A stretch of 50,939 nucleotides of DNA from Aquaspirillum serpens DSM 68 (GTDB lineage Bacteria; Pseudomonadota; Gammaproteobacteria; Burkholderiales; Aquaspirillaceae): contig NZ_ATVC01000008.1 in NCBI RefSeq assembly GCF_000420525.1, positions 1 through 50,939 of the forward strand. The letters run 5' to 3'. The notes under the pieces are model-generated. The model did no database searches and was not told the DNA's origin. It saw nothing but the letters and a program-made list of their open reading frames with translations. Positions 1,973-17,605 of the stretch are shown piece by piece. Positions within the stretch are counted from its first letter, which is position 1. Every line of letters begins with the position of its first letter. The translations under genes were made by a program, and so were the position numbers.

Positions 1973-2725
1973 TTAGGGATTCACTAATTCATTAATAGGG
2001 ATCTCTTCTTCTGCTTGAGATTGCAACCCAACTTTTTTATCTCGAATCTGCAAATAGGTATCTCTCATCAAAGAATAGGGATCGAGGGCAGCTTCTTCTA
2101 ACAATTTTTCACTACCCAACAACTGCGCCCGCTGATTGATTACGTTAACACCGACGATAGTATTGCGTGTAGGAACATCATGTTGGACATGATGGTCGAG
2201 TGGATTAGAGACAAAATCAACCCCCGTACCAATCGCATCACGTACAGTTGAAGGCCCTAATAGCGGCAACACTACATAATGGCTGTTTTTCCAACCATAA
2301 TGTGCCAAAGTATCGCCGAAGCCACTTTTTTGGCTTTTGAGTCCCATTGGGGAAGCAATATCAAGCAAACCACCAAAACCAAATACCGTATTAACAGCTA
2401 CACGGAAAAAGTCATTTAGTGCTTCCTTTGGCTTTAATTGGACTGCATGATTGGCAAAACTGACAATATCTTTCATATTGTCAAAAACATTACTGACCCC
2501 CTGTCGGATGGGCTCAGGTGTCACGGTTTTGTATCCCTCAGCAACCGGCTGCATCACATATCGATCCGCCTTCTGATTAAAGGAAAACACGACACGATTC
2601 ACCGGTTCGAGAGGGTCGCGGGCATGGCGTTGCTCAACACTGGCACAAGCGGTCAAAGAAAGAACCAAGGCTGCCGCCATGGCCGAACGCCTATTGAACA
2701 GAGGTAACAAGGTCAGAAACTCCAT
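1973..2725 (-). CDS. mlaA: MlaA outer-membrane lipoprotein (VacJ family)
   Basis: MlaA sits in the inner leaflet of the outer membrane next to porins and extracts phospholipids that have reached the outer leaflet, passing them to MlaC. The N-terminus has a lipoprotein signal with lipobox LTAC, then the family core with DPLEPVNR and repeated helical segments including NTVFGFGGLLDIAS. ATG at 2725 gives 250 residues; the reading frame opens with an upstream TTG at 2737 that has no better ribosome binding site. The start lies inside mlaB (35-base overlap), which suggests translational coupling. It is the last gene of the operon. In enterics mlaA is unlinked, whereas linkage as here is usual in betaproteobacteria. 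Confidence 0.95.
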   Translation of the reverse strand: MEFLTLLPLFNRRSAMAAALVLSLTACASVEQRHARDPLEPVNRVVFSFNQKADRYVMQPVAEGYKTVTPEPIRQGVSNVFDNMKDIVSFANHAVQLKPKEALNDFFRVAVNTVFGFGGLLDIASPMGLKSQKSGFGDTLAHYGWKNSHYVVLPLLGPSTVRDAIGTGVDFVSNPLDHHVQHDVPTRNTIVGVNVINQRAQLLGSEKLLEEAALDPYSLMRDTYLQIRDKKVGLQSQAEEEIPINELVNP

Positions 2726-2987
2726 ATAAATCAGCAAGATCTAAAAATGCTTGCGGCAGATGTAGGTGGGAGAGTTCCACGTGGTTAGCCGCAGCAATGC
2801 GTTGTAGTTGCAAAGCCAAAGCAACCGCTGCGGAATCAACCTTTTCCACCGCTTGCCAATCGAAACAAACAACACCGCGCTGCACCGCTTGGCTTATCTC
2901 ACGTTCAATTTTTGCTGCCTCATAAAACGTAACGTTGCCCTTCAGTGGCCACGGCGATAACTCAGCTTTTGGCGATGAAAGCATCAT
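2691..2987 (-). CDS. mlaB: MlaB STAS-domain subunit of the lipid ABC transporter
   Basis: A 98-residue cytoplasmic STAS-domain protein. The short beta strand and helix pattern and the block VDSAAVALAL, with the conserved serine of STAS loops, identify it. In MlaFEDB this subunit binds the ATPase MlaF and stabilises the complex. Two consecutive ATGs (2987 and 2984) are preceded by AAAGAGAAA, which can serve as a ribosome binding site. The first 26 bases overlap the end of mlaC and the last 35 overlap mlaA, so the three genes are tightly coupled. Confidence 0.9.
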   Translation of the reverse strand: MMLSSPKAELSPWPLKGNVTFYEAAKIEREISQAVQRGVVCFDWQAVEKVDSAAVALALQLQRIAAANHVELSHLHLPQAFLDLADLYGVSDLVTSVQ

Positions 2988-3582
2988 TTTTCTCTTTTAA
3001 TGACTTAATTAAGCCATCAACACCCGACTGACGAATAATGTCGTTAAAATTATTGCGATAGACAGTGACCAAGCTCGCCCCTTCTACAGAGACGTTATAG
3101 ACTTTCCATTCAGTAGCAACCTTATATAAGGAATAGTCAACTTGGACATTCTTACCATCACCCATCGCTACTTGGCTACGTACTGTGGCTTCATTACCGT
3201 CGGCAGAAATAACAGGGTTAGATGCCACATTGACTTGTGCATTACGGAAGCGGAACATGGTTGAAGTGTAGGTTCTCACCAGTAGCGTTCTGAACTGCAC
3301 TTGTAATTCTTCCTGCTGCGCCGGTGAAGCGTCTCTCCATCCTCGTCCCACCGCTAAAGCCGTCATCCGTTTGAAATCAAACTTCGGCACAGCGATAGAT
3401 TCCACCTCAGCACGAATCTGACGGCTATTTTTCCCGTCATCTTTTTTCAGCGTGTCTAAGACCTGTCGAGAGGCCTGCCGTACCATGGCATCCGGCGTGT
3501 CATTTGCCAGTGCAACAGTTGATGGTAGCAATCCAGCACAGAACAAAATTGGTACTAACCAATGACGTAAACCCTGTAACAT
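2962..3582 (-). CDS. mlaC: MlaC periplasmic phospholipid shuttle
   Basis: The 206-residue precursor begins with a hydrophobic signal peptide (about residues 1-26, cleavage near ALA/ND). The mature region fits the MlaC (Ttg2D) family, with a phospholipid-binding alpha/beta fold carrying blocks such as YTSTMFRFRNAQV and WKVYNVSVEGASLV. MlaC ferries phospholipid between MlaA at the outer membrane and the MlaFEDB complex at the inner membrane. A strong AAGGAAAT ribosome binding site precedes the ATG. It is the fourth gene of mlaFEDCBA, 26 bases after mlaD. Confidence 0.95.
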   Translation of the reverse strand: MLQGLRHWLVPILFCAGLLPSTVALANDTPDAMVRQASRQVLDTLKKDDGKNSRQIRAEVESIAVPKFDFKRMTALAVGRGWRDASPAQQEELQVQFRTLLVRTYTSTMFRFRNAQVNVASNPVISADGNEATVRSQVAMGDGKNVQVDYSLYKVATEWKVYNVSVEGASLVTVYRNNFNDIIRQSGVDGLIKSLKEKNDAFIAKS

Positions 3583-3608
3583 ATTTTATTTCCTTAATTA
3601 AATGATGA

Positions 3609-4088
3609 TTATTCGGTTGAGTTGGTTGGTTTTTCAGCAAAACTCAACATAAATTTGCCAACCAAATCCTCTAATACTAAAGCAGATGAAGTGATATCAA
3701 TCTTATCGCCGGCAGCCAATTGAACTTCATCGCCCCCATCCAACAAACCAATATATTGCTCGCCTAACAAACCTGCTGTCAGAATTTGCGCGCTCACATC
3801 CTTGCTAAAGCGATATTCACTGTTTAAAGCCAAAGTTGCACGAGCACGCATGGTTTTTGTGTCTAAAGCAATCGATTCAACACGTCCCACTAAAACGCCC
3901 GCCGCTTTCACCGGTGCTCTGACTTTTAAGCCACCGATATTATCGAAATCGGCATACACCACATAGCTCTGCACACCCGAGCCGATGGAAGTCAGATTTG
4001 CCACTTTGAGTGCCAAAAACAGCAAAGCCCCAAGGCCGATCACCGCAAAGACGCCGACCCACAAATCTATCGTACCGCGTTGCACCAT
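3609..4088 (-). CDS. mlaD: MlaD MCE-domain subunit
   Basis: A 159-residue protein with one N-terminal membrane segment (about residues 9-28) followed by a single MCE/MlaD domain (about 38-118: YVVYADFDNIGGLKVRAPV through GLLGEQYIGL). MlaD forms a hexameric periplasmic ring on MlaE that receives lipid from MlaC. Length and order match the usual family. It is 10 bases downstream of mlaE. Confidence 0.95.
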   Translation of the reverse strand: MVQRGTIDLWVGVFAVIGLGALLFLALKVANLTSIGSGVQSYVVYADFDNIGGLKVRAPVKAAGVLVGRVESIALDTKTMRARATLALNSEYRFSKDVSAQILTAGLLGEQYIGLLDGGDEVQLAAGDKIDITSSALVLEDLVGKFMLSFAEKPTNSTE

Positions 4089-4098
4089 TCTTGAATCC

Positions 4099-4881
4099 TT
4101 AAAACATAAAAGCCGTTAACATAAAGTCTAGGGCCAAAATCACGAGAGCGGAGGTAACAACAGTCCGAGTCGTAGCACCAGAGACTCCCGCTGCAGTTGG
4201 TACGGCGTTAACACCCTCAAACACAGCAATCAATGTCACCGCCACCCCAAAAATCACACTTTTGATCACACCATTGACCACATCATAGTGAAGATCAACA
4301 TTTGACTGCATTTGTGACCAATAAGCGCCCCCGTCCAGACCAATCATCACGACACCAACAAAATACCCCCCAACAATTCCACATACATTAAATACAGCAG
4401 CCAATAATGGCATCGATACCACCCCAGCCCAAAACCGAGGTGCCAACACCCGCGCTATCGGGTTCACCCCCATCACCGCCATCGCATCTAACTGTTCAGT
4501 GGCTTTCATCAAACCAATTTCTGCCGTCATCGCACTACCCGATCGACTGGCAAACAATAGTGCAGCTAATACAGGGCCAAGCTCACGCAGCAAAGATAAT
4601 GCCACTAAAGTCCCTAGCGCCTCGGTAGAACCAAAACTATTGAGCGTGGTATAGCCTTGCAATGCTAAAACCATACCAACAAAAGTCCCCGACACCACAA
4701 TAATCAGTAATGACAAAACACCCGCAAAATAAATCTCACGGATTAACAAGGGCAATCGCTGTAATGTCTGTAAAGAATTGATTAATAACAAGAACAAAAA
4801 GCGCATGGCAAAACCAAAACGCCACACACCCTCTACAACCAGATGCCCAACTCGACGTAATGGGTACAATAAATCAGGCAA
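4099..4881 (-). CDS. mlaE: MlaE ABC-transporter permease
   Basis: A 260-residue MlaE/YrbE-type permease with about five hydrophobic segments and the family signature region ELGPVLAALLFASRSGSAMTAEIG. The start is a TTG at 4881. It is supported by a GAGGAG ribosome binding site at the right distance and by the protein beginning MPDLLYPLRRVG, typical for the N-terminus. The next in-frame ATG would remove conserved sequence. The gene begins 10 bases after mlaF stops. Confidence 0.94.
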   Translation of the reverse strand: MPDLLYPLRRVGHLVVEGVWRFGFAMRFLFLLLINSLQTLQRLPLLIREIYFAGVLSLLIIVVSGTFVGMVLALQGYTTLNSFGSTEALGTLVALSLLRELGPVLAALLFASRSGSAMTAEIGLMKATEQLDAMAVMGVNPIARVLAPRFWAGVVSMPLLAAVFNVCGIVGGYFVGVVMIGLDGGAYWSQMQSNVDLHYDVVNGVIKSVIFGVAVTLIAVFEGVNAVPTAAGVSGATTRTVVTSALVILALDFMLTAFMF

Positions 4882-4891
4882 GCGAATCTCC

Positions 4892-5707
4892 TCATTGCTT
4901 TAAACCAAGTTCAGCCGCGTAATCAGCAGCAGGGTAGTGTAATCTGACCGGTCCATCCGCTTCACCTTGGACAAATTGCCTCACAAACGGATCGGTAGAA
5001 ACACGAACTTCATGTGGCGTACCTTGGGCGACAATTCTTCCTTCGGCAATAAAATACACATAATCTAGTATATTTAACGAGACATGCACATCATGTGTCA
5101 CCATCACAGCCGTAGTTTTCAGAGCATCATTCAAACGCCGAATCAATACAGCAATCGTGCCGAGTGCAATCGGATCTAAACCAGTAAAAGGCTCATCGTA
5201 CAGCATTAAAGCCGGATCTAAGGCAATCGCCCGCGCCAAAGCGACTCGACGCGACATCCCCCCTGATAGCTGGGATGGCATCAAATTTGCTGTCCCACGC
5301 AGCCCTACTGCTTGTAGCTTCATCAAAACCAGATCACGAATCATCGCCTCTGGTAGTTGAGTATGTTCACGCAATGGAAAAGCAACATTCTCAAATACAT
5401 TCAAATCAGTAAACAATGCGCCAAATTGGAAAAGCATACCCAAGCGGCGGCGCAATGCCAGCAAATCACGGTCAGACAGACGGTTAACCTCACAACCATC
5501 AACCCAAACCGAACCGGATTGCGGTTTTACCTGACCCGATAACAAACGCAACAATGTTGTTTTTCCGCAACCAGAACCACCCATTATGGCAACTAGCTTA
5601 CCTTGTGGTATAGATAGTGAAATGTCTTGCAAAATGGGCTTTGTGCCGTAGGAAAAACTAACATTTTTGAGTTCTATGAAAGGTTTGTAATCTGTTTCAT
5701 TGTACAT
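4892..5707 (-). CDS. mlaF: MlaF ABC-transporter ATPase
   Basis: This is the ATPase subunit that powers phospholipid movement through MlaFEDB. It shows Walker A GGSGCGKTT, the signature LSGGM, Walker B LMLYDEP and an H-loop VTHD. ATG at 5707 (271 residues) is chosen because GGCGGG lies just upstream; the frame stays open to 5734. It is the first gene of the operon. The leader carries an unusual perfect hairpin with a U-tract, described separately. Confidence 0.95.
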   Translation of the reverse strand: MYNETDYKPFIELKNVSFSYGTKPILQDISLSIPQGKLVAIMGGSGCGKTTLLRLLSGQVKPQSGSVWVDGCEVNRLSDRDLLALRRRLGMLFQFGALFTDLNVFENVAFPLREHTQLPEAMIRDLVLMKLQAVGLRGTANLMPSQLSGGMSRRVALARAIALDPALMLYDEPFTGLDPIALGTIAVLIRRLNDALKTTAVMVTHDVHVSLNILDYVYFIAEGRIVAQGTPHEVRVSTDPFVRQFVQGEADGPVRLHYPAADYAAELGLKQ

Positions 5708-5736
5708 ATACCCGCCCAGCAAGCACATTAGCATTG

Positions 5737-5828: not shown

Positions 5829-7547
5829 GTGGAGTCGACAACCGTGGGAATGCAACTTCATATTAGAACGCGTCAGCAGCAAAAAATTCCTCTCTGGCTG
5901 ATGATGTTTTTATCACTGACGGCTTGTCAGCATCGCCCGCCAACACTTTCAGACCAGCATCTTACACAGCCTCACACGCCATCCGTTATTTCTTCACCAG
6001 TCAGCACCGAATCATCTCCGCTCACTCTGGTTCAGCCACCACAAAAAACCTTTACTTTAATTGTTTCACAAGCGCCAGTACGCGAAGTACTTAGCAAGAT
6101 CGCAAAAGAAGCAGGGCTAAATGCTGATGTTCATCCAGCTATCAATGGTTTAATCACGATTCATGCCATTAAACAATCTTTGCCCACTATTTTAAATCGT
6201 ATTACGCAGCAAGCGGCTATTCGTTGGCGAGTTAGTGATCAAGCCATCATTATTGATATTGAGCCAGATACTCCTTATCTAAAACACTACCAAATCAATC
6301 ATCTTAATTTAAACCGTCAATATAAAACGGAAATTGGTGCCAGTTCAGTAGTCAAAGCCACCGGTAGCCACAGCATTATCCCAGGGAATCAGTCAGGACA
6401 TAAAGCAGGATCATATAGTCAATTCCAAAATGAAGCACATAATCATTTCTGGCAAAGTTTACAAAATCACTTTGAGAAAATTTTACAAGAGCGAGGGAAT
6501 TCTCCAACCGTTGTTGAATTGGTGCCAAAATCAAATGAGCAAAAACCAAACCAACAAACATCGAGCGTACCAATTAAAGAAAGTTTTTCTCAAGTCTCTG
6601 GCCTAGTATCAATTCATAAAGAAACTGGGATTATCTCAATATTAGCTACCGAAAATCAACATCAAAAAATCTCTCAACTGATTAAAGAGATAGAAGCACA
6701 AAGCAACAAACAAGTCATGATAGAAGCAACTATCATTGAAATAGAACTTTCACACGAGTATCAAATGGGTATTGACTGGCAAGGAATATTTAAAGATGGT
6801 CGGTATCGTTATCAACAGAATTTTGCCCGTTATATCAATAGCAACCCTATACCGAAGTTTAATGCTGCATTGCCCATTTTTGAATATATTAGTAGCGGTG
6901 GCAACATACAAAGCACAATACAAGCTTTAGAAAGTTTTGGCAAACTTAAAGTTTTATCCAGCCCTAAAATTATTTCTCTTAATAATCAACCAGCTATTCT
7001 CAAAGCAGTACAAGACATCCCTTACTTTACTATGCGGGTGAATATTTCAGAAGGCAACAATAATCAGGCTAGTAGAACAAGCTATGAAAGTCATTTAAAT
7101 ACCGTATCAGAAGGGATTGTTCTCACCATTTTGCCACAAATTTCTGACCAAGGAAGAATAGCAATCAATATTCGTCCAACTATTTCATCTGTTATTGGCT
7201 ATATCCGAGACCCAGCAATTGATTTAGCTCTTTCACAACAAGCGAAAGCTAACTCAGTTGATGTAAAAAGCGAAATTCCTATTGTACAGATTCGAGAACT
7301 AGAGTCGACATTGTTTCTTCAAAATGGCCAAGTGGCTGTGCTCGGCGGATTGATTAAAGACCAAATAAAAGAAAATGATATCGGTCTACCTTTTATCAGC
7401 CGTGTTCCAGTAGTCGGTAATATTTTTAAATATCGCACCGAAGAAAGCAAAAAAACAGAATTAGTTGTTTTAATCAAACCAACTCTGATTTCAGCAACAC
7501 AGCAAAAAATCATTAAGCTCTCTAATCAAGATGGAGATCCAACATGA
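5829..7547 (+). CDS. mshL: MshL-like pilus secretin (outer-membrane lipoprotein channel)
   Basis: A secretin of the type II/IV filament superfamily that would form the outer-membrane ring. The N-terminus has a lipoprotein signal with lipobox LTAC. About residues 70-150 form the N0/STN-like domain (VSQAPVREVLSKIAKEAG). The C-terminal half (about 285-560) is the secretin domain with VMIEATIIEIELS, AVLGGLIKDQ and VPVVGNIFKYR. A longer Ser/Asn/Gln-rich stretch lies between them. The frame opens with GTG 5829; ATG 5850 after GTGGGA is an equally good or better start, giving 565 residues, close to Vibrio MshL. It is the first gene of an AT-rich six-gene cluster and overlaps the next gene by ATGA. 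Confidence 0.85.
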   Translation: MESTTVGMQLHIRTRQQQKIPLWLMMFLSLTACQHRPPTLSDQHLTQPHTPSVISSPVSTESSPLTLVQPPQKTFTLIVSQAPVREVLSKIAKEAGLNADVHPAINGLITIHAIKQSLPTILNRITQQAAIRWRVSDQAIIIDIEPDTPYLKHYQINHLNLNRQYKTEIGASSVVKATGSHSIIPGNQSGHKAGSYSQFQNEAHNHFWQSLQNHFEKILQERGNSPTVVELVPKSNEQKPNQQTSSVPIKESFSQVSGLVSIHKETGIISILATENQHQKISQLIKEIEAQSNKQVMIEATIIEIELSHEYQMGIDWQGIFKDGRYRYQQNFARYINSNPIPKFNAALPIFEYISSGGNIQSTIQALESFGKLKVLSSPKIISLNNQPAILKAVQDIPYFTMRVNISEGNNNQASRTSYESHLNTVSEGIVLTILPQISDQGRIAINIRPTISSVIGYIRDPAIDLALSQQAKANSVDVKSEIPIVQIRELESTLFLQNGQVAVLGGLIKDQIKENDIGLPFISRVPVVGNIFKYRTEESKKTELVVLIKPTLISATQQKIIKLSNQDGDPT

Positions 7548-8344
7548 AAATCAAACCACTTAATGAATTTAACTTTTCAGAAAAGATACCTAACTCTCTA
7601 CATATCGAGAGCACATTACGGCAGGAAGATATGAGCTCAGATTCAAAAAACAATCAAAAAAGCAAAACCAAATCGATCTTGATAATTAGTGTTCTCCTAA
7701 TTGGAGGGATGATTCTATTTGCCACAGATCTGACCTTAATTAATGCCAAAGCAGAACAGGTGGTTACCACAGGAAATACTCCAACAAAACTGTCTCCTGA
7801 AGTGACTCAAGACACAATTGTCACATCAACTGCAGCAGAAGAACAGCTACTCGATAGACTAGCTAGAGAATATCCAGCCCCTTCGCTGAGAGTAGATCAA
7901 GAAAGTCAGCAAACACATCAAGAGCAAAAAGCAATTGAAAATAAAAATTCTCAATTGCCTACAAAAATTTCTCAGGTTAAAGACAATACAGAAACAAAAC
8001 CACTCTATTTTTTTGAACAGCATACAGAAAAAAACTTGCCCTATGAGGATAGTAGTAAAAATAAAACAGCAGATGAAATATTCTTGTATGGAATTGAACT
8101 GGCTAAAGCAGGAGATTGGCAACAAGCACAAGAAAATTTCTTTATTGCCTATGATATGCAACCCACACAGGCTGATTTTGCTTTTAACTTAGCAGTCAGT
8201 CTCGATCAATTAAACTTGAAAAACCAAGCACTTCTTTTCTATAAAAAATCTATCGAATTGACCCAACAAGGATCACCCTATCAATTTAATATTCAGCAGG
8301 TTGACAATCGTATTATACACATCGAGAATTTAATTCGAGGTTAG
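7544..8344 (+). CDS. TPR-repeat inner-membrane protein, MshN-like
   Basis: A 266-residue bitopic protein: cytoplasmic N-terminus, one membrane segment (about residues 45-63, SILIISVLLIGGMILFA), a long low-complexity Gln/Glu/Lys linker and a C-terminal TPR-like pair (about 180-250; AGDWQQAQENFFIAYDMQP and NLAVSLDQLNLKNQALLFY). The topology and the place directly after the secretin match MshN in MSHA pilus loci, where its role is thought to be in assembly. Sequence similarity by eye is limited to the TPR region, so the assignment rests mainly on context. Translationally coupled to the secretin gene by a 4-base overlap. Confidence 0.6.
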   Translation: MKIKPLNEFNFSEKIPNSLHIESTLRQEDMSSDSKNNQKSKTKSILIISVLLIGGMILFATDLTLINAKAEQVVTTGNTPTKLSPEVTQDTIVTSTAAEEQLLDRLAREYPAPSLRVDQESQQTHQEQKAIENKNSQLPTKISQVKDNTETKPLYFFEQHTEKNLPYEDSSKNKTADEIFLYGIELAKAGDWQQAQENFFIAYDMQPTQADFAFNLAVSLDQLNLKNQALLFYKKSIELTQQGSPYQFNIQQVDNRIIHIENLIRG

Positions 8345-8346
8345 AA

Positions 8347-9882
8347 ATGGATAATGAAAAAATTGGGCAATTACTGATTAAAAAAGGACTCATTACGCAA
8401 CAACAGCTCACTATTGCACTTGAGGAACAAAAGCATAGAAACATTGGTACGAGAATTTGTAATATTCTCATTGAGATGGGCTTTGTTGATGCTGATATTT
8501 GTTATGCAGCATTAGCTGAGAAACTAGGTGTTAAAAGCATAAATGTTTTTGACCAAAACAATAGGGAAATATTTGAGTTTACAGAAAATCAATTATTAAC
8601 TCTCGAACAACACTTAATTTTTCCACTATGTTTTAATAAAACAGCCAATACAATCAGCTTAGCTGTTAGCGATACGGATCAGTTTTTATCAATCGACTTA
8701 ATTAGAGAAAGTTTCTTCAACCCATCTGCTAAGGTTGATATCTTTCTTTGCAGTCAAAAAGCCATATTAAATTTTCTAGAGCAATATTTTTACAATCATC
8801 AAAAACTCGATCCAAACCAAGAAGACTTCTTAGAAATGATTTTTAGGATTGCTCTTGCAAGGAAATGTTCAGACATCCATTTTCAACCACATCAGTATTT
8901 CACTCGGCTATGTTGGAGAATAGATGGGGATTTGCATGAAGCAACACTTATTCATTACAAAAAATGGCCAACTATCTTAGGAAAAATAAAATTTTTAGCA
9001 AATTTAGATATCAGTGAAAACAGAAAATCACAAGATGGTCGTTTTAGCGCAGAAATTTTTGGCAAAAAAATTGATTTTCGTGTTTCTGTTCATCCGACTC
9101 TATTTGGTGAAAACATTGTTATTCGCTTACTTAATTTTAGCAATAATATTTTTCATTTAAGCAGCTTAGGCTTTCTATCTGAACAATTAAAACTCATTGA
9201 TAAAATTATTCAACAAGAACAAGGTTTAATTATTGTCACAGGAGCAACAGGGAGTGGAAAAACAACAACTTTGTATAGCTTGTTACAAAAAATAAATCGC
9301 CCCCAAATTAATATCATGACGCTAGAAGAGCCTGTTGAGTATGTAATGGGTTCTATTAGACAAACCTCATTAACAGATAACAGTAAAATCTCATTCTCAG
9401 ATGGCATAAAATCTTTATTAAGACAAGATCCGGATATTATTTTGGTAGGCGAAATTCGAGACACAGACACAGCAATTATGGCAATTAGAGCAGCCATGAC
9501 AGGACATCAAGTTTATGCAACCTTACATGCAAACTCTGGATTAGGTGTAGTTGCACGTCTAATTGAACTTGGCATTAGTCATGAATTAGTTGCAATGAAT
9601 ATAATAGGTGTAATTTCACAAAAACTAGTCAAGAAACAGTGTAGCTGTTCTCAATCTGTCTCTTGTCGTATATGTCATGGGACTGGTTTATTTGGTCGAA
9701 CAGTGATTGCAGAGGTAATTGCCTTCGACAAGGAAATTTCACTTGCCATTTCTAATAAAGAATCTTTGTTGCAAATTGAAAAAAGTAAATTACATGGAGA
9801 GAATCATTTCTCAATGGAACAAGACATCAAAGAAAAAGTTAGAGCAGGACTTATCAATAAAGAAAGCTCTATGTTTTTTTAG
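8347..9882 (+). CDS. mshE: MshE-like filament assembly ATPase (GspE/PilB family)
   Basis: A 511-residue hexameric-type secretion ATPase that would drive filament extension. The N-terminal about 65 residues form an MshEN-type domain with two consecutive repeats (IGQLLIKKGLITQQQL and ICNILIEMGFVDADICYAAL), a fold known to bind c-di-GMP in MshE. The ATPase core has Walker A GATGSGKT (299-306), an Asp box and Walker B DPDIILVGEIRD (361-372). The usual tetracysteine zinc subdomain is contracted to C432, C434, C440 and C443. In the first MshEN repeat the expected Arg before L-G is a Lys, which may weaken nucleotide binding (inference). The gene has a GAGG ribosome binding site and starts just after the TPR gene. 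Confidence 0.88.
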   Translation: MDNEKIGQLLIKKGLITQQQLTIALEEQKHRNIGTRICNILIEMGFVDADICYAALAEKLGVKSINVFDQNNREIFEFTENQLLTLEQHLIFPLCFNKTANTISLAVSDTDQFLSIDLIRESFFNPSAKVDIFLCSQKAILNFLEQYFYNHQKLDPNQEDFLEMIFRIALARKCSDIHFQPHQYFTRLCWRIDGDLHEATLIHYKKWPTILGKIKFLANLDISENRKSQDGRFSAEIFGKKIDFRVSVHPTLFGENIVIRLLNFSNNIFHLSSLGFLSEQLKLIDKIIQQEQGLIIVTGATGSGKTTTLYSLLQKINRPQINIMTLEEPVEYVMGSIRQTSLTDNSKISFSDGIKSLLRQDPDIILVGEIRDTDTAIMAIRAAMTGHQVYATLHANSGLGVVARLIELGISHELVAMNIIGVISQKLVKKQCSCSQSVSCRICHGTGLFGRTVIAEVIAFDKEISLAISNKESLLQIEKSKLHGENHFSMEQDIKEKVRAGLINKESSMFF

Positions 9883-9894
9883 GAAGTTAAGAAT

Positions 9895-11100
9895 ATGAGA
9901 TATTACTACAGATCAATTGACCATAACCATAAAATCCATACTGGTTACATTGATGTAGAAAGCATCACTGAGTTAGAAAAATCATTAAAAGCACGCAATC
10001 TTTTTCTAATTGATTGCAAACTATTAGACAATAAAAAGAAAAATTGGCTGAGTTTTGGTAAAAAAATAGAAATCGATCAACAACTTCAATTATTATTTGA
10101 ATGGTTGTTACTATTACAATCTGGCATTACAGTGATTTCATCTATTGAAAGTTTGATTGAAGCCAGTGAAAACACGAATCGTAAAAATGCACTACAAGCA
10201 ACGCTGTTAGCATTAGAACAAGGAAAATCTCTATATCAGGCAATCAGTCATAATCAAATTTTCTCAAACATGGTAAAAGAGTTTATTAGAATCGGTGAAA
10301 CCAGTGGCAGCCTTATTACAAGTATGAATCATGCTTATACGTACCTACAAGAACAAAAAAACAACCAAGATACTATTAGACAAGCTATGTTATACCCGAT
10401 GTTTACTGTTGTTATTGGGTTGGCTGCTGTTGTTTTTTTGAGCTATTGGATATTACCAGAATTGACCAGCTTTCTCTTAAGTTTAGATCAAGAACTCCCG
10501 ACTACAACACGCATATTAATTTCACTGTCTGATTGGTTACAAACAGAAGTTGACCAGTTAGCCATTATTTTAGGATTTATTTTTTTAATTATTTACCTCT
10601 TGATTAAACATGAGTTAATTTCAAGAGAAAAGGTAGACTATTTCTGTTGGCGATTACCAATTTTTGGAGAGATTCAACAAATGATTTTTCTCAGCCAATT
10701 TAGCCGACTGCTCAGCATCACCTTAACTAGCGGTCTCACATTGGCAGATTCGATACAAACCAGTAATTTTATCAGCAACAATGCCTTCATTCAAAAACAA
10801 ATTGAGTTAATTTATCAAAAATTAGAACAAGGCTTTTGCTTTCATGAAAGCCTTGCCCATACACAATTAGCGCCCCAGATCATTGTTTCTCTTATCTATA
10901 ATGCAGAGAAAACGGGAAAAATTGCACCATGCTTAGACTATATTTCCATATTCTATCGTGAAAAAGCCAATCAGAGATTACAAAAAGTACAAAAGTTAAT
11001 TGAACCATGCCTTACTTTGTTTATTGGGCTGATACTTGCTTTTTTCATCATGGCAACCCTAGGTCCATTGTATGAATTGAGTAGCCAACTGGGGCAGTGA
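9895..11100 (+). CDS. mshG: MshG-like inner-membrane platform protein (GspF/PilC family)
   Basis: A 401-residue polytopic protein with two T2SS-F domains, each ending in a membrane segment (about residues 160-190, 220-240 and 370-392). Family blocks include LLQSGITVISSIESL, EFIRIGETSG and ITLTSGLTLADSI. This protein anchors the assembly ATPase and rotates or feeds pilin subunits. AGGAAG precedes the start and it lies 12 bases after the ATPase gene. Confidence 0.88.
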   Translation: MRYYYRSIDHNHKIHTGYIDVESITELEKSLKARNLFLIDCKLLDNKKKNWLSFGKKIEIDQQLQLLFEWLLLLQSGITVISSIESLIEASENTNRKNALQATLLALEQGKSLYQAISHNQIFSNMVKEFIRIGETSGSLITSMNHAYTYLQEQKNNQDTIRQAMLYPMFTVVIGLAAVVFLSYWILPELTSFLLSLDQELPTTTRILISLSDWLQTEVDQLAIILGFIFLIIYLLIKHELISREKVDYFCWRLPIFGEIQQMIFLSQFSRLLSITLTSGLTLADSIQTSNFISNNAFIQKQIELIYQKLEQGFCFHESLAHTQLAPQIIVSLIYNAEKTGKIAPCLDYISIFYREKANQRLQKVQKLIEPCLTLFIGLILAFFIMATLGPLYELSSQLGQ

Positions 11101-11104
11101 TAGC

Positions 11105-12370
11105 ATGAAAAAAGCCATTGTTTTTATTGAACCCAGCCAGATAGAAATATTCTTTTGCGAGGTATTTTTCCAAAAAATAAAAATAAGTCAAATTTTAACT
11201 TTATCAACAACTAATCAACAACAAGACTGGTTGAACCAATGGATTGATGTAGTTAAACAAGACAAACAGACTATTTTTTATTTTGTATTAAGCAGTAGCT
11301 TTGTTGATACTAAGGTAGAGTATCTACCAAAAATCGGCTTCTTCGATCAGAAAAGGCTGCTTAACCGGTTGGAGAGATCGAAGTTAAAAGGTAATGCAAT
11401 ATACCAATTAAAGGGACGATGCTTATTTTGTTACAGCCTCAAAACAGAAGCAGTGATGGATAAGATATTTACCATTGCAGAGGAGCAAGAAATCCAAGTT
11501 GCAAAAATCGTGAATTTTTTTGATTTACTTAGTCATAAATTTCTCAAGAATCTGCCTAATAAAGACATTTACTATCAGACAGACAGCCTATTACACTTTT
11601 ACACTTATCAAGATGGTTATCTAAAAGCAAAGCGGGATTTATATTTACAACCAGAAGAGAGTTGGTTAGCACGAGAAGTGGACAACTGGCAAAGGTCAAC
11701 AGGAAAACAATTGATAAATATCACATCGGAGATTGACAAATCAGCCCTAATTTCTGACATCATCAAGAAAAGCATTAGTTACTCACTACCACATCTGCGT
11801 AAAAGCTTTTTTAAGCAGTATTTAACAAAAATAACTCAGGCGATCATTTTTTTAACATCAAGCATGATTGTTATATCATTTGTTGCTTTTATTTTCTTCT
11901 TCCAAGAAGGGCAGCAACTAACCGAAATCCTATCACTAAAAAAACGAGAGTTTATTACTGTAGAAAATCAACAGCAAAGACAGCAACAACAAGATCAAAT
12001 ACTGAGTCAACTGCAGCAATATGATCTAATTAGGCCACCAGAGAAATGTCTGGGTACTGTCAAAGAAATAATAAAAAAAGCCTGGCCATTAGAAATCAGT
12101 CATTACACATGGCAATATGAATTTACTAAAAAAGAGCCAAAACTAAAATTTTCTATTAACCTTCAACATAGAACTGAGGTTAATCCACATCAAGCAATGC
12201 TATGGATTCACGCGGTTGCAAATGCTTTGCAAAAACAACAGTTAACAACCTCAATTGAACAATCTCCCTTACCATTGCGACCTGATCAAAACTGGACAAA
12301 TCGACAGCAAGATAATAATCCGGTGTTTCAGCTGACTATCGAAACAGATCGTCCAGCAAGATGCATATAA
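11105..12370 (+). CDS. GspL/MshI-like bitopic assembly protein
   Basis: A 421-residue protein with a cytoplasmic N-terminal region of about 240 residues, one membrane segment (about 245-268, hydrophobic with FVAFIFFF), a glutamine-rich coiled-coil stretch (about 285-310) and a periplasmic alpha/beta domain at the C-terminus. This order is that of GspL or a fused PilM-PilN, and matches MshI in MSHA systems. The actin-like fold of the N-terminal part is inferred from topology; I cannot point to intact nucleotide-binding motifs. It probably links the ATPase to the periplasmic alignment complex with the next gene product. It starts 4 bases after the platform gene. Confidence 0.6.
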   Translation: MKKAIVFIEPSQIEIFFCEVFFQKIKISQILTLSTTNQQQDWLNQWIDVVKQDKQTIFYFVLSSSFVDTKVEYLPKIGFFDQKRLLNRLERSKLKGNAIYQLKGRCLFCYSLKTEAVMDKIFTIAEEQEIQVAKIVNFFDLLSHKFLKNLPNKDIYYQTDSLLHFYTYQDGYLKAKRDLYLQPEESWLAREVDNWQRSTGKQLINITSEIDKSALISDIIKKSISYSLPHLRKSFFKQYLTKITQAIIFLTSSMIVISFVAFIFFFQEGQQLTEILSLKKREFITVENQQQRQQQQDQILSQLQQYDLIRPPEKCLGTVKEIIKKAWPLEISHYTWQYEFTKKEPKLKFSINLQHRTEVNPHQAMLWIHAVANALQKQQLTTSIEQSPLPLRPDQNWTNRQQDNNPVFQLTIETDRPARCI

Positions 12371-12391
12371 TCTCTGATGAAGGGTAAGAGC

Positions 12392-12946
12392 ATGTATTTT
12401 ATAAAAACAACAGACATCAGGCATTATTTACCACCAGCACATTTGCTGAAAGTTGCCTCAATGCTTATCGGATTATCAATCATAATAAGTGGTTATGCTT
12501 TCCATTATTATAAAAACAATCAACGATTAAAAAATCAGCTGCAACAATATCAACAAAAAACAATAGTCCCTGAACAAGAGATGTCTTTGCAAAAACATAA
12601 GTTAAAAAACAGCATATTATTTCAAGCTGAAAACCGCGTAGCACTGTTACAAACCTTGCAAAAAATAGAACAGAAAGGCATTACCAATAATGATTGGCAA
12701 GTTGATTTTTCAATCGCAGAACAACATCAACAGGGATTATGGCAGATAAGTACAATCAAATTAAAAATAGGCTTAAAACGAGAAATACAGCTGTTTGAAT
12801 TGCTGGATTTTTTGACACAGCGCGAGGGTGTCCTATCGCCCATGCGCTGTGATGTGCAACAGTTGAGGACCGGCGCAGCAACAGCAAATTGTCAATTACA
12901 GTGGCTCACTGTCACTGCCGCAGGCAAACAGGCCTTCAACGATTAA
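12392..12946 (+). CDS. PilO/GspM/MshJ-like bitopic protein
   Basis: A small protein (184 residues from ATG 12392, which has AAGGG seven bases upstream; the frame opens at ATG 12377). It has a short cytoplasmic tail, one membrane helix (about residues 20-38 with MLIGLSIIISGYAF), a coiled-coil segment and a C-terminal ferredoxin-like alpha/beta domain ending with two cysteines (in MRCDV and ANCQL). The arrangement fits PilO, GspM or MshJ, the partner of the preceding gene product. Last gene of the AT-rich cluster; its stop shares TTAA with the stop of the convergent ackA. Confidence 0.55.
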   Translation: MYFIKTTDIRHYLPPAHLLKVASMLIGLSIIISGYAFHYYKNNQRLKNQLQQYQQKTIVPEQEMSLQKHKLKNSILFQAENRVALLQTLQKIEQKGITNNDWQVDFSIAEQHQQGLWQISTIKLKIGLKREIQLFELLDFLTQREGVLSPMRCDVQQLRTGAATANCQLQWLTVTAAGKQAFND

Positions 12947-14118
12947 CAAAGAGCTAACGTATCGCGTGCGATGGTTCGCTCTTCATCTGTCCCCAGCGCC
13001 AAGGCCAGCGGACTGCCAGCCGCCGTAATTTGCCCTTCTTTACCTCCAACACAAAGCGCATTGGCTTGCGTGTCAACACGGTAACCAAATAAACCTAGGC
13101 GCTGTAAGGTACGGGCACGCAGGCTTGGCGCATTTTCACCAATTCCACCGGTAAAAACCAACGCATCAATCCGAGGCAAATTAGTCATCAAACCAGCAAT
13201 AGCCTTTGCTAGACGATGAACAAACACTTCCAACGCCAAGTGTGCCCCTTGATGGCCTTGGGCTTCTGCTTCTAACAATTCTCGGCAATCGTTGCTCAAC
13301 TCAGACAAACCTAATAAACCACTTTTGCGGTTTAGCAGTTCATTTACCCCCTGCACATCGGTTTTCAATACCTCGCATAAGAACGGCAAAATACCTGGGT
13401 CGATATCACCCGAGCGCGTTCCCATGACTAACCCTTCTAATGGCGTCAGCCCCATGGTGGTATCAACACTTTTGCCATTCACAATCGCACAAGCAGAGGA
13501 ACCGTTGCCCAAATGCGCGCTGATCATACAAATTTCATCTGTTGGTTTACGTAACCACTGTGCAGTGCGTTGACACACATAACGATGACTGGTGCCATGA
13601 AAACCATAGCGGCGAACACCGTGTTCTTTATACAAGAACATCGGCACTGCATACAAATAGGCATGTGATGGCATGGTTTGATGGAAAGCAGTATCAAACA
13701 CAGCCACATGGAGCAGGTGGGGCAGATGTTGGCGGGCAGCGTGAATACCAATTAGGTTGGCGGGATTATGCAATGGTGCCAAGGCTGAACATGCTTCAAT
13801 CGCAGTCAACACCTCATCATCAATAATGATTGATCCCTGAAAATGCTCACCACCATGCACAACACGATGCCCAACTGCGCGCACTTTGGTCATCAAATCC
13901 CGTTTTTCCAATTCAGCCAACACGGCCTGCATGGCTTCACTGTGTGCCCCTTGTTGCAGATCGAATTCGTAGCTTTCGTCTCCCTTAAATAAGACATGCG
14001 CCCCCGGTTGTCCGAGCCGTTCAGCCAAACCTTTTAATGCTACCTCGCCGGTTTCTGGGTCTAACAAAACAAATTTCAGAGAGGAACTACCACAGTTAAT
14101 CACCAACACAGAAGACAT
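12943..14118 (-). CDS. ackA: Acetate kinase
   Basis: AckA interconverts acetate plus ATP and acetyl phosphate plus ADP. The N-terminal signature VLVINCGSSSLKF and the later blocks RYGFHGTSHRYV, SAHLGNGSSACA and VFTGGIGENAP are all present, and the length of 391 residues is normal. ATG 14118 has GGAGA just upstream; the frame extends to a TTG at 14130 that is not needed. No phosphotransacetylase gene is adjacent. The gap from 14119 to 14466 holds a possible promoter for the downstream plus-strand gene and nothing else recognised. Confidence 0.97.
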   Translation of the reverse strand: MSSVLVINCGSSSLKFVLLDPETGEVALKGLAERLGQPGAHVLFKGDESYEFDLQQGAHSEAMQAVLAELEKRDLMTKVRAVGHRVVHGGEHFQGSIIIDDEVLTAIEACSALAPLHNPANLIGIHAARQHLPHLLHVAVFDTAFHQTMPSHAYLYAVPMFLYKEHGVRRYGFHGTSHRYVCQRTAQWLRKPTDEICMISAHLGNGSSACAIVNGKSVDTTMGLTPLEGLVMGTRSGDIDPGILPFLCEVLKTDVQGVNELLNRKSGLLGLSELSNDCRELLEAEAQGHQGAHLALEVFVHRLAKAIAGLMTNLPRIDALVFTGGIGENAPSLRARTLQRLGLFGYRVDTQANALCVGGKEGQITAAGSPLALALGTDEERTIARDTLALC

Positions 14119-14308
14119 CGATTTCTCCAAAAAGGGGGCGGATAGGCCAAAGGCACAACCAGCCTAGGATACCAGACATGCCAAGAAGATAAAGCCAACT
14201 TTACGACATGGATGTTAAAGATATGTGAGCAAAATCCCTCGATTTAACCTGCTTTTTACTAAAACTTTGATGAAAAACTACTTTTAGCAAGTTTTTTTCA
14301 CAAAAGGC

Positions 14309-14337: not shown

Positions 14338-14466
14338 CCGGCCCCTTGCTTTCAAGCCAACTCACACCACAACTTTGAATTGGCTAAGTAAGAAATAGGT
14401 ATCCGCAAACTCGTTTCAGCGAGATTCGGCTGGTCTTGATTCTTCAGATATTGGGGATTGGGAATA

Positions 14467-15582
14467 ATGTCTGATCTGGCGAACGCGCATACTCTGCGCG
14501 CCTCCTCCACGCAACTTCCGGTCGATGTTTACTTCGATCCGGCCATTTATCAATTGGAACAAGAACGTTTGTTCCGCAACGCTCCGCAATACTATGGACA
14601 TGAGCTGATGGTGCCGAATATCGGTGACTATCACACTTTGGCGTGGATGGATCACGGCAAAATGCTCAAACGAGTAGAAAGCGGTGTGCAGCTATTGTCG
14701 AATGTCTGCCGACATCGGCAAGCCCTCATCCATAAGGGTCGCGGCAATGGTGATCTTATCACCTGTAATATCCACGGTTGGACTTATGATAATCAGGGTG
14801 TTTTAGTCGGTGCACCGCACTTTGCTGATAACCCTTGTCTCAATCTTGGGAAAACGCAGTTGGTCTCTTGGAATGGTTTGTTGTTTGACGCAAAACGCGA
14901 CATTCAACAGGATTTAGCCAGTCTAGGTGTCGCCCAACATCTGAGTTTTGAGCAATACGCCTACTCAGAATCTGTCACCACTGAATACGACTTCAACTGG
15001 AAAACCTTTATCGAGGTGTATTCAGAAGACTACCATGTCGATCCGTTCCACCCTGGTTTGGGCAACTTCGTTGACTGCAGCGAGTTGAAATGGGAATGGG
15101 GCCGACAATACCATGTGCAAACGGTTGGCGTGAAAAATCGTCTGGCACGGGCAGGCAGTCAGGTTTACAGCCAGTGGCACCAAGAAGTGCTCAAACAGTA
15201 CCAAGAAAAACAACCCGAGTTTGGCGCAATCTGGTTGACCTATTATCCAAACATAATGGTGGAGTGGTATCCCCATGTGTTAGTGGTCAGTGTCGCGATT
15301 CCTCGTGGCCCAGAAAAAACCACCGTCATCACTGAGTTTTACTACCCAGAAGAAATCGTGTGGTTTGAGCCTGACTTTATCGCAGCAGAAAAAGCAGCTT
15401 ACTTTGAAACCGCTGTTGAAGATGATGAGATTTGCTACCGGATGCACGAAGGCCGCCGCGCCCTGTGGCAACGTGGTGAATCCGAAGTCGGCCCTTACCA
15501 ATCGCCAACCGAAGATGGAATGCAGCATTTCCATGAATACTACCGGCGCGAAATGGGTGCAGATTTTGTAAAAGCCCGCTAA
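14467..15582 (+). CDS. Rieske non-haem iron oxygenase, alpha-subunit family
   Basis: A 371-residue protein with the domain order of ring-hydroxylating oxygenase alpha subunits. The Rieske [2Fe-2S] site is C81-x-H83 and C100-x2-H103. The catalytic mononuclear iron site is visible in SEDYHVDPFH, with D188 as the bridging residue and H190 and H195 as ligands; the carboxylate ligand is expected near the DDEICYR block. No reductase, ferredoxin or beta-subunit gene lies next to it, so the electron donor is unknown. Possible substrates include aromatic acids or quaternary amines, but nothing in the sequence decides this. ATG 14467 is preceded by GGGGATTGGGA. A terminator follows the gene. Confidence 0.9.
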   Translation: MSDLANAHTLRASSTQLPVDVYFDPAIYQLEQERLFRNAPQYYGHELMVPNIGDYHTLAWMDHGKMLKRVESGVQLLSNVCRHRQALIHKGRGNGDLITCNIHGWTYDNQGVLVGAPHFADNPCLNLGKTQLVSWNGLLFDAKRDIQQDLASLGVAQHLSFEQYAYSESVTTEYDFNWKTFIEVYSEDYHVDPFHPGLGNFVDCSELKWEWGRQYHVQTVGVKNRLARAGSQVYSQWHQEVLKQYQEKQPEFGAIWLTYYPNIMVEWYPHVLVVSVAIPRGPEKTTVITEFYYPEEIVWFEPDFIAAEKAAYFETAVEDDEICYRMHEGRRALWQRGESEVGPYQSPTEDGMQHFHEYYRREMGADFVKAR

Positions 15583-15605
15583 GCTGACCACAGTTGTTTG
15601 CTCAT

Positions 15606-15626
15606 ACGCCCCCGCCTTGGGGGCGT
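15606..15626 (+). terminator. Terminator after the Rieske oxygenase gene
   Basis: An 8-bp GC-rich stem ACGCCCCC (15606-15613) / GGGGGCGT (15619-15626) with a 5-base loop, followed by a weak T run. It lies 24 bases past the stop. Confidence 0.6.
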
Positions 15627-15658
15627 TTGCTCGTCTGGCCTTTACCGAGACTTTCCCC

Positions 15659-17605
15659 ATGACATCCTTTACTAGCCAAGGCTTTGCCCTACCCTCATGG
15701 TGGAATGGGCGTTTTGCCAGTCAGGACACCGCACAATCGCTACGCGAATTGGTCACCAGTGGCGCTAACAGCGTCTCTATCGTAGCAACGGCTTACACCA
15801 AAGATCGCTTTTCCAGCACTATCGTTGCCGATGGCCGTACAGAATCAGCCGCTAATGTGGCCACGATCTTACAAGCCGCACAACGCTATCCAAATCTAGA
15901 GGTCATCTATAAACCACACTTCAGTCCACAAACCGATGACTGGCGTGGCCGTTTTGCCCCCACCGACCCCGAGGCGTGGTTTCAAACTTATCGCACTTGG
16001 ATTGTTGAACAGGCTAGATTGGCTCAAGCCAATCAGGTTGATGTGTTTGTGTTGGGCACAGAATTTAGCTCATTAGCGATTGCTCGTTATCAAACACAGT
16101 GGACGGACATCATCAGCGCCATTCGGGAAGTCTATCAAGGACAACTCACTTATAGTTCGACCTTGAGTGCCGCCATGAGTGTGCCTTTTTGGGAACAGCT
16201 TGATTTTGCCAGTGTTACCGCCTATCCAGTCAGCGCCGGTAGTTATGCGGTCAACGCAGCACAGGTCATGGAAAGCTGGTATCTCGGTGTGGGCGGTGAG
16301 ATTGCGCCATTAACCCAAATCAGCGCCCTACAAAACGCCACCGGACATCGTGTGTTAATCACCGAAGCAGGCTATCGTAGCATCGACGGTGCAGCACTCA
16401 AGCCGGAAGACTACGAACAAAACACCACCGTTGATGTGCAGGAACAACAAGCCGCCCTACAAGGTATGTTATCGGCACTCAGTCAATTTTCCACTCACAC
16501 CGGCGGCTTACAAGGCATCCATCTGTGGAATTGGGAAACACAACCCAGCGCCAGCTTTAACAATAGCGACAGTGGTTACACCGTGCAGGGCAAACCCGCT
16601 TATCAAACCGCCAGCCAATGGTTTCATGCCAGTACACCACCAACCGTTTTACAGCTATTAGATGGCCGCGCACGCGCCGATTTATGGTTAATCGGCAACG
16701 ACAGTGCCGAGTTAGTGTTACTCAACCAAACAGGGCAAGCGGTATTAGCAGGCGGGGGAGATGATCGAATTGCCCTACAGCGTGGGTCGCATTGGATTGA
16801 TGGCGGTAGTGGTAACAACACCCTTTCGCTGCAATCGTCGGCCAGTGGCAGCACAGTGTTTTTCGGAACAGATAACGACAGCATGGGCGTGGCGTGGAAT
16901 CAAAGTGGTGTCAGCCTATTCCGCCATATCCAAGCCGTAAACGGCACTATCTATGACGATACTTTGATCGGTAACGATCAAAATAACCTGTTTTACACCG
17001 AAACAGGACAAGACAATGTGATGCTGCGTGGCGGTAATGATGAGGTTTATCTTGGGCCAGGAAATAAGATGGTCGATGGCGGCAGCGGCGTAGATAAGAT
17101 GAACTACAGTGGCGTCGGTACCGCTCTCACCGCCAGTGGCGACACGCGCTTATGGCAGGTCAAACACGGTGGATTTCACGATGTCTTGCTGCAAGTGGAG
17201 CATCTGGTAGGTAGTCCCTACGCCGACAACATCCGTTTTGGCGAAGGTGCGCAAACTGTTGATGGCGGTGGCGGGCGCGATACCTTAGGCGGAGGAACGG
17301 GGGCTGATCGCTTTGAAATCACTCGCGCGGCAGCGAGCGGAGATACCGCTACCCTAATAGATTTTCGCGCGGGTGAAGATCAACTCGCGTTAAGCAGCAA
17401 AGTATTTATTGCCGCAACCCAGCAAGACTGGCAAAACGTCTCCTCACTGACCACCAGCAGCCCAGCGCGCTACCTGCTCGATAGCCAAACGCGAACCTTA
17501 TACTACGATGCCGATGGCAGCGGCAGTGCATTTGCTGCGGTTTCAGTGGTGAGCTTCGCCAGCAGCAGTGATTTGCCACAGTGGACAGATATGGTGTGGT
17601 TTTAA
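15659..17605 (+). CDS. GH113-like glycoside hydrolase with C-terminal RTX calcium-binding repeats
   Basis: A 648-residue protein from ATG 15659 (the frame opens upstream at 15617 over the terminator, which is not plausible). Residues about 1-330 look like a TIM-barrel glycosidase of the GH113 mannanase type. The expected acid/base is E135 in VLGTEFSS and the nucleophile E236 in ITEAGYRS; both match the family pattern. Residues about 355-600 carry glycine/aspartate-rich RTX-type motifs (AGGGDDRIAL, DGGSGVDKM, DGGGGRDTLGGGTGADRF) and end with a typical RTX C-terminal segment (DFRAGEDQLALS). There is no N-terminal signal peptide, so type I secretion through a C-terminal signal is likely, but no ABC/HlyD pair is in the window. 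Its stop shares TTAA with the convergent tonB stop. The substrate is not known. Confidence 0.75.
   Translation: MTSFTSQGFALPSWWNGRFASQDTAQSLRELVTSGANSVSIVATAYTKDRFSSTIVADGRTESAANVATILQAAQRYPNLEVIYKPHFSPQTDDWRGRFAPTDPEAWFQTYRTWIVEQARLAQANQVDVFVLGTEFSSLAIARYQTQWTDIISAIREVYQGQLTYSSTLSAAMSVPFWEQLDFASVTAYPVSAGSYAVNAAQVMESWYLGVGGEIAPLTQISALQNATGHRVLITEAGYRSIDGAALKPEDYEQNTTVDVQEQQAALQGMLSALSQFSTHTGGLQGIHLWNWETQPSASFNNSDSGYTVQGKPAYQTASQWFHASTPPTVLQLLDGRARADLWLIGNDSAELVLLNQTGQAVLAGGGDDRIALQRGSHWIDGGSGNNTLSLQSSASGSTVFFGTDNDSMGVAWNQSGVSLFRHIQAVNGTIYDDTLIGNDQNNLFYTETGQDNVMLRGGNDEVYLGPGNKMVDGGSGVDKMNYSGVGTALTASGDTRLWQVKHGGFHDVLLQVEHLVGSPYADNIRFGEGAQTVDGGGGRDTLGGGTGADRFEITRAAASGDTATLIDFRAGEDQLALSSKVFIAATQQDWQNVSSLTTSSPARYLLDSQTRTLYYDADGSGSAFAAVSVVSFASSSDLPQWTDMVWF

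Follow-up and report, generated by a model that had tools for sequence, protein, structure and literature searches.

A split MSHA-like filament assembly operon, divergent and AT-rich, in Aquaspirillum serpens DSM 68

A stretch of 50,939 nucleotides of the Aquaspirillum serpens DSM 68 genome (NCBI RefSeq contig NZ_ATVC01000008.1, positions 1 to 50,939 of the forward strand, called the window here) contains six intact, close-packed genes on its + strand at 5850-12946, which were recognized from open frames and their translations as those of a secretin (L), a tetratricopeptide repeat (TPR) protein (N), a GspE-like ATPase (E), a GspF-like platform protein (G), a GspL/MshI-like protein (I) and a PilO/MshJ-like protein (J). 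The operon is AT-rich and no pilin gene accompanies it, which raises the question of whether it was imported into this site, whether it serves a distinct secretion system, or whether it is one half of an older machine related to the mannose-sensitive hemagglutinin (MSHA) pilus. The reading favored here, to which a probability of about 0.8 is assigned, is that the six genes belong to a split MSHA-like filament machine with its pilins elsewhere in the genome, and that they are old genes that have diverged and become AT-rich in this species through altered constraint.

Assembly genes and pilins at separate loci

The genome surveyed for other parts of the machine comprises 2.6 Mb in 119 contigs and is 99.97% complete. 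A search with the N_methyl profile finds no prepilin in the window, as had been stated in a preliminary description made from the sequence alone, and when extended to the whole genome, as that description had proposed, it finds two prepilins over the cut-off (c4B and c4A, with GFTL(I/V)E starts), side by side on another contig (C4). They belong to a cluster beside rpoS (C4:67899-70163), whose counterpart in relatives is the stretch of the operon downstream of the assembly genes, and upstream of them is a 381-aa gene (P) that has a minor-pilin-like start without Glu5 and no Pfam match. A degenerate GF(S/T)L(I/V)E-like pattern gave four matches in the genome, against two in a reversed control; two of the four were the C4 pilins, and the other two, having no prepilin frame, were rejected as additional prepilins.

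The operon was compared with 90 loci, made up of 80 named loci kept from an ATPase scan (among the matches listed) and 10 further loci. The family referred to below consists of genomes of the window's own bacterial family, including those designated G001 to G005, and four of its loci were read. L, E and G share a strand in 75 of the 90 loci, and the gene order L-N-E-G of the window is that of betaproteobacterial relatives. In the loci examined for I and J these come after G (by a length rule, I follows G in 25 of 31 loci and J in 23 of 31). Such genes are otherwise seen in environmental bacteria; three loci (L068, L069 and L076) come from metagenome bins that carry the titles Rickettsia typhi and Bordetella parapertussis, and these titles look mislabelled.

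When non-family loci are limited to those whose sequence extends 3 kb or more past G, 59 of 69 have relatives of the C4 pilins within the locus; with 6 kb or more required, 56 of 59 have them. In Denitromonas halophila (L061) the order of matches is L N E G J P B A. In two family genomes (G004 and G005), as in A. serpens, matches to the B and A pilins and a gene that is P-like by position come after hdac, and in G004 after nlpD-rpoS as well; in G001, G002 and G003 the relatives of B and A are separated from each other. On this evidence the split extends to several genera of the family and is not confined to this one assembly. The possibility of a split MSHA locus with its pilins elsewhere, raised in the preliminary description, is supported by the correspondence of the C4 cluster to the downstream part of the relatives' operon and by the like arrangement in G004 and G005. 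The split may even be older than the family, because its nearest non-family neighbors in the concatenated tree described below, L058 and L059, have no C4-type pilins nearby either; together with L056 they make up the three non-family loci, among the 59 with 6 kb or more after G, in which no relative of a C4 pilin was found.

Of the other parts of such a machine, the assembly ATPase, the platform, class III prepilins and a prepilin peptidase, which are those of the type IV filament superfamily, are all present in the genome. L is the only secretin over the cut-off (one further match, E value 0.04, is below threshold), E is the only assembly-type ATPase besides one PilT, and the one prepilin peptidase is encoded apart from the window; none of the pilin, PilT and peptidase genes is disrupted or unusual in composition. 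A hidden second machine was rejected as a candidate on finding no further secretin over the cut-off and no further assembly-type ATPase in the genome. The window operon is probably the sole secretin-type filament system of this genome, since no other secretin over the cut-off or assembly ATPase was detected. The reported lack of an MshM ATPase holds for the locus itself, and L and N adjoin in 69 of 74 relatives too; for the genome as a whole it was tested indirectly, without an MshM profile, by an AAA_22 search that gave 35 matches, of which 15 were retrieved. The readable ones among these resemble housekeeping ATPases.

Position, descent and composition of the operon

The sharp difference in composition between the operon and its flanks, from which the preliminary description suggested transfer, is confirmed. 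The GC content of the six genes is 0.33-0.38, versus 0.45-0.49 in the neighboring mla and ackA genes and 0.46-0.52 in the C4 pilins, and the GC content of their third codon positions (GC3) is 0.24-0.36, versus 0.40-0.46 in mlaA-F and 0.44 in ackA. From L to G the GC content is 0.351, compared with 0.477 in the surroundings, a difference of -0.126, while the differences of 75 relatives span -0.044 to +0.064 (the 15 of the 90 loci without a secretin match being excluded).

Recent transfer is nevertheless unsupported as the cause of this difference, because the position of the operon beside mla is conserved and the concatenated tree groups the window with its family. By phmmer, each of the four family loci read has mla genes next to the operon; divergent mlaD/E genes are found upstream in 41 of 58 loci, the four family loci counted in and loci with less than 5 kb upstream of L excluded. 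Trees were built from 37, 27 (the concatenate) and 24 rows, hand-picked from the 90 loci and the window, with L055, itself long-branched, omitted from the concatenated tree. In the concatenated E+L+G tree, the window is placed with its own family with support of 99/100, and among single-gene trees that of L backs this placement. The end branch of the window in the E+L+G tree is 4.04 long, versus a median of 0.43; family members have 0.44-1.54, with G003 at 1.54. The mla protein tree, in contrast, has a window branch of 0.38 versus a median of 0.2 and family values of 0.11-0.24, and this branch is not flagged as long. Recent transfer into the site was rejected because of the conserved mla neighbor and of the trees, both that of the secretin and the concatenated one. 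Low GC content and missing pilins in a filament operon are thus no sure sign of recent arrival, since its position and the trees indicate here that it is old. The preliminary description had also named two findings that would overturn it, a complete second MSHA locus and a cluster ancestral and ordinary for its genus: no complete second locus was found, and the position of the cluster is old to judge by mla and the trees, yet its composition is not ordinary compared with relatives.

All four family loci are GC-rich, and in these the GC content of the operon core exceeds that of the surroundings by 0.026-0.057. The operon seems to exaggerate the GC bias of each genome, because the cores of the GC-rich family loci are richer still in GC. 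The locus of G003 (L050) has a core of 70.7% GC in surroundings of 65.0%, a shift in composition opposite to that of the window.

Several observations weigh against the reading of an old, vertically inherited and split machine. There are steps in GC content inside L (at about 6400) and near the 3' end of J (at about 12800); E and G, taken alone, neither back nor reject the family placement (approximately unbiased test, p = 0.452 and 0.633, respectively); and without the long-branched G003 the support for grouping the window with the family drops to 90/86. Only one flank is conserved, since ackA adjoins the operon in 0 of the 90 loci. Among family genomes, G002 (87% complete) has no secretin match, the matches of the P pilin to G004 and G005 are weak (E values of 0.008 and 0.006), and the lone PilT (C24:5854-6873) shares only 48-53% identity with the best-matching proteins of four same-family genomes, with no ortholog found in G003. 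E retains 124 of 180 residues that are near-invariant in relatives, and reduced activity is possible. Finally, that the scattered parts work together is something we infer.

The first two of these observations are also accommodated by the main rival explanation, replacement in place, by which recombination with end points in the 5' part of L and in the 3' part of J would have brought in an AT-rich allele from a distant or unsampled donor without changing the position of the operon. Such an event could account for GC steps that lie within L and J and not at gene borders, for the low GC3 of the six genes relative to mla and ackA, and for the absence of any special family affinity of E and G. Against it, no closer relative was found either among 398 sampled genomes of the phylum with three candidates scored per genome, of which only one besides the window's own passed an E value of 1e-98, at 42% identity, or among the matches listed for the 80 loci of the named-genome scan, where the best identity was 40%. 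In addition, the secretin and concatenated trees group the window with the family, resemblance to the family is not clearly greater at the ends of L and J than in the interior, and segment identities along the operon show no break matching the GC steps (as a breakpoint test they were uninformative). Replacement in place is on this evidence unlikely, but it deserves to be kept in view.

Gene features and the condition of the machine

The open frames, Pfam matches and predicted folds agree with the identities given to the six genes in the preliminary description (Table 1). The best NCBIfam profile for L is TIGR02519 pilus_MshL, at 241.6 bits slightly under the cut-off of 250.2, which the Denitromonas ortholog exceeds with 252.3 bits, whereas other secretin profiles, GspD and PilQ among them, fall well short of their own cut-offs; the frame of L opens at a GTG (5829), and the ATG at 5850 is the likelier start, yielding a lipobox, LTAC, that was read by eye. 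The best Pfam match of N is TPR_16 (7.6e-4, below the cut-off). The N-terminus of E matches an MshE-related c-di-GMP domain (NF053729, 50.3 bits versus a cut-off of 38), and E retains Walker A, Walker B, the His box and four Cys. Among NCBIfam platform profiles, GspF fits G best, below its cut-off. Pfam searches with I and J gave nothing meaningful, and I could be aligned with 16 relatives at 12-16% identity; AlphaFold models of both were made from alignments with 16 relatives. The model of I (predicted local distance difference test score, pLDDT, 70.9) matched PilM (3.9e-9) and cytoplasmic GspL (6.5e-9) in Foldseek, with a VIA Z of 10.4 to cyto-EpsL and PilM that is tied with other actin-like folds such as FtsA, which suggests that I is GspL-like or PilM-PilN-like. 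The model of J (pLDDT 80.2) has P. aeruginosa PilO as its top PDB match, with a weak Foldseek E value of 3.4e-3 and a VIA Z of 11.1 at a root-mean-square deviation of 2.0 over 94 residues, which suggests that J is PilO-like.

Table 1. Coordinates of the operon, its neighbors and an example K gene (window positions unless a locus is named).
Feature	Position	Strand	Description	Evidence
L	5850..7547	+	secretin lipoprotein, MshL-like	Pfam Secretin 5.5e-36
N	7544..8344	+	TPR protein with N-terminal hydrophobic stretch (read by eye), MshN-like by position	phmmer match to same-place gene in relatives
E	8347..9882	+	PilB/GspE-type assembly ATPase with MshEN-related N-terminal domain	Pfam T2SSE 1.5e-97
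G	9895..11100	+	inner-membrane platform, GspF/PilC type	Pfam T2SSF 8e-40
I	11105..12370	+	GspL/MshI-like; actin-like cytoplasmic domain, long helix, ferredoxin-like end	predicted fold
J	12377..12946	+	PilO/MshJ-like	predicted fold
mlaF-E-D-C-B-A	1973..5734	-	divergent upstream neighbor	phmmer; gene names read from sequence
ackA	12943..14130	-	acetate kinase-like; convergent, overlaps end of J	name read from sequence
K (example)	L061:14968-15315		small secreted protein gene after J	K profile

Scans of the window for promoters and terminators gave results not above those for shuffled sequence, and a tRNA scan of the window found none. Beyond ackA, the window contains a Rieske-type oxygenase-like gene followed by a gene for a 662-aa protein with hemolysin-type Ca-binding-like repeats, read by eye (14458-17605).

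The gene at which the window departs from nearly all non-family relatives is that of a small secreted protein, K, which relatives encode directly after J (pattern LGRLFxTPxxRAxLD...TVWING...LKVGQ). A profile made from 19 K proteins, themselves among the loci, finds K after J in 68 of the 69 non-family loci (loci with less than 3 kb after G being excluded), and ackA in the window occupies the spot where non-family relatives have K and usually pilins. In keeping with the preliminary description, which had noted no PilP/MshK lipoprotein, this profile finds K neither in the window nor elsewhere in its genome. Nor does the profile find K in the four family loci (3 kb or more of sequence follows G in three of them, less in the fourth), and six family genomes gave no match in a whole-genome search that lacked a positive control of its own; as a control for the K search, the same alignment run on the loci matches 70 of 90. 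None of five K proteins tested passed a Pfam cut-off, and a search of PDB sequences returned only the scIg12 and dIG14-scdim-EF62 chains (E values of 0.0017 and 0.0045), from which no identity was gained. By position only, K may be the equivalent of PilP/MshK.

The proteins of the operon are highly divergent: E of the window shares 35-40% identity with the 14 relatives to which it was compared, and the corresponding figures for G003 and G004 are 47-61%. In addition to the changes in E, L retains 65 of 78 near-invariant residues, G 39 of 64 and N 11 of 14, and G003 is next lowest or low in such counts (157 of 189 for E). The 2,353 stop-free codons across the six genes, despite near-saturating divergence, suggest that selection is still acting, and to judge from the sequence the machine is probably still in use under changed or relaxed constraint. 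Alternatively, the function may have ceased, leaving the operon to drift to the mutational equilibrium of the genome. Hyper-divergence and AT drift, the failure to find K in the family, the change of 56 of the 180 near-invariant residues of E, and the GC-rich family loci with a core richer in GC, as if following the bias of each genome, are all compatible with loss, but the six frames are intact and adjacent, E has not lost its Walker motifs, its His box or the four Cys, and the pilin, PilT and peptidase genes are intact with normal composition, so that loss of the machine appears improbable.

Control by the second messenger cyclic diguanylate (c-di-GMP) is a separate matter. As described with its crystal structure (PMC5013675), the MshEN receptor consists of two 24-residue motifs, RLGxx..G..LxxxLxxQ, joined by a 5-residue linker, and Gly and Gln positions of these contact c-di-GMP. 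In motif I of the window's E, Lys replaces Arg and the remainder is kept; in motif II, Cys replaces the Gly, Cys replaces a Leu and Lys replaces the Gln, with a spacer of 7, so that E departs from the canonical motif. The motif II Gly is kept in 86 of the 90 relatives. The Gln column of motif II is S, K, N, T or A in most relatives and Arg is rare in both motifs; the Gln and Arg departures are therefore not particular to the window, because most relatives share them. The MshEN motifs of G003 (L050) also depart. Because the Gly and Gln positions touch c-di-GMP in the crystal structure, c-di-GMP control is doubtful in the window's E, and it is uncertain in the group as a whole.

Under the reading of a split machine, the six genes would encode one half of a type IV filament machine of the MSHA-like kind, comprising its motor and its trans-envelope parts, and their pilin partners would be the products of the C4 cluster beside rpoS, P without Glu5 and the two GFTL(I/V)E prepilins, matured by the lone prepilin peptidase. 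By analogy with related machines, E would act against G such that pilins are added to the filament, I and J would couple the motor to the periplasm, L, held by N, would be the exit, and the distant PilT could retract the filament. The operon would have retained its ancestral mla neighbor; in the ancestor of the family members, or earlier, it would have been cut after J, the pilins moved and the K gene lost. In this species the six genes would then have diverged far more than those of relatives and turned AT-rich while remaining intact; the simplest cause would be a relaxation or change of constraint during vertical descent. Within this account the gene content and positions, the split, the absence of K and the divergence are what was observed, and the function, the cooperation of the scattered parts and the reason for the divergence are inferred.

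A further and rather doubtful suggestion is that the machine of the family lost K and parted from its pilins, and that in A. serpens, where no other secretin-type system was detected, its motor and envelope parts are being rebuilt at a rate many-fold above the usual into a reduced machine (three pilin-like genes, no K, motif II Gly lost) that perhaps makes no ordinary adhesive pilus. The gene order of the operon is already known; its split, its missing K, its apparent status as sole system and its hyper-divergence make it a variant. It offers a natural case of a two-part secretin filament machine, apparently without a subunit that nearly all relatives keep. The role of K would thereby become testable, as would the question of whether an MSHA-like machine can be the only type IV filament system of a genome.

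Comparison with known filament systems

A distinct secretion (pseudopilus) system instead of an adhesive pilus, the other possibility raised in the preliminary description, is not required by the data, so far as sequence comparison can tell. It would be consistent with the recognition of only three pilin-like genes in the genome and with GspF as the best platform profile, but the profiles of the type II secretion system (T2SS) are far below their cut-offs (GspD 150.4 bits versus 351.35, GspE 320.8 versus 630.25, GspF 208.2 versus 424) where MshL is near its own, and PilT is present; of the explanations considered, it is the least probable. Profiles of the type IVa pilus (T4aP) are also below cut-off (PilQ 122.6 bits versus 284.35, PilB 333.9 versus 675.65), as is the TadA-type profile of the Tad system (TIGR03819, 59.4 bits versus 373.15). 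Like the type IVa pilus with its PilMNOPQ proteins, the system of A. serpens has a predicted PilO fold in J, a predicted PilM-like fold in I, and a PilT in the genome, but unlike it, the PilM-like and PilN-like parts would be fused in I, and no PilP is found in the locus.

The MSHA locus of Vibrio cholerae resembles the window in content, having an MshL-type secretin, a TPR protein, an MshEN-related ATPase, a platform, and GspL-like and PilO-like proteins. The window is unlike that locus in gene order, as the preliminary description had pointed out, and in that no MshK or MshM was found and the pilins lie apart; its c-di-GMP motif departs from that of Vibrio, partly as those of betaproteobacterial relatives do. 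The difference in order fits the significant rearrangement of MSH clusters printed by Emerson et al. for the Fe-oxidizing betaproteobacteria Gallionella ES-2 and Sideroxydans ES-1 (PMC3770913).

In the account given by Denise et al. 2019 (PMC6668835), MSH systems are encoded almost exclusively at a single locus and systematically in genomes with a T2SS, T4aP or Tad system, and the mandatory genes of the MSH model are mshL, mshE, mshG, mshA (which may lie apart) and mshM. In contrast to that pattern, the genome of A. serpens has two loci plus a lone PilT and peptidase, with no second secretin or assembly ATPase found. Its mshA candidates are c4B and c4A, both over the N_methyl cut-off, either of which could be the major pilin; its mshE and mshG candidates match T2SSE, T2SSF and the MshE-related c-di-GMP domain over their cut-offs, none of these being an MSH-specific full-length profile.

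The window also resembles the MSHA-like clusters of betaproteobacteria such as Denitromonas halophila (L061) and Janthinobacterium psychrotolerans (L135), with which it shares the L-N-E-G order and, often, the mla neighborhood. Those clusters carry K and usually C4-type pilins in the locus, whereas in A. serpens K was not found and the pilins are on another contig, and the proteins of the window are far more divergent and their genes more AT-rich than these betaproteobacterial relatives.

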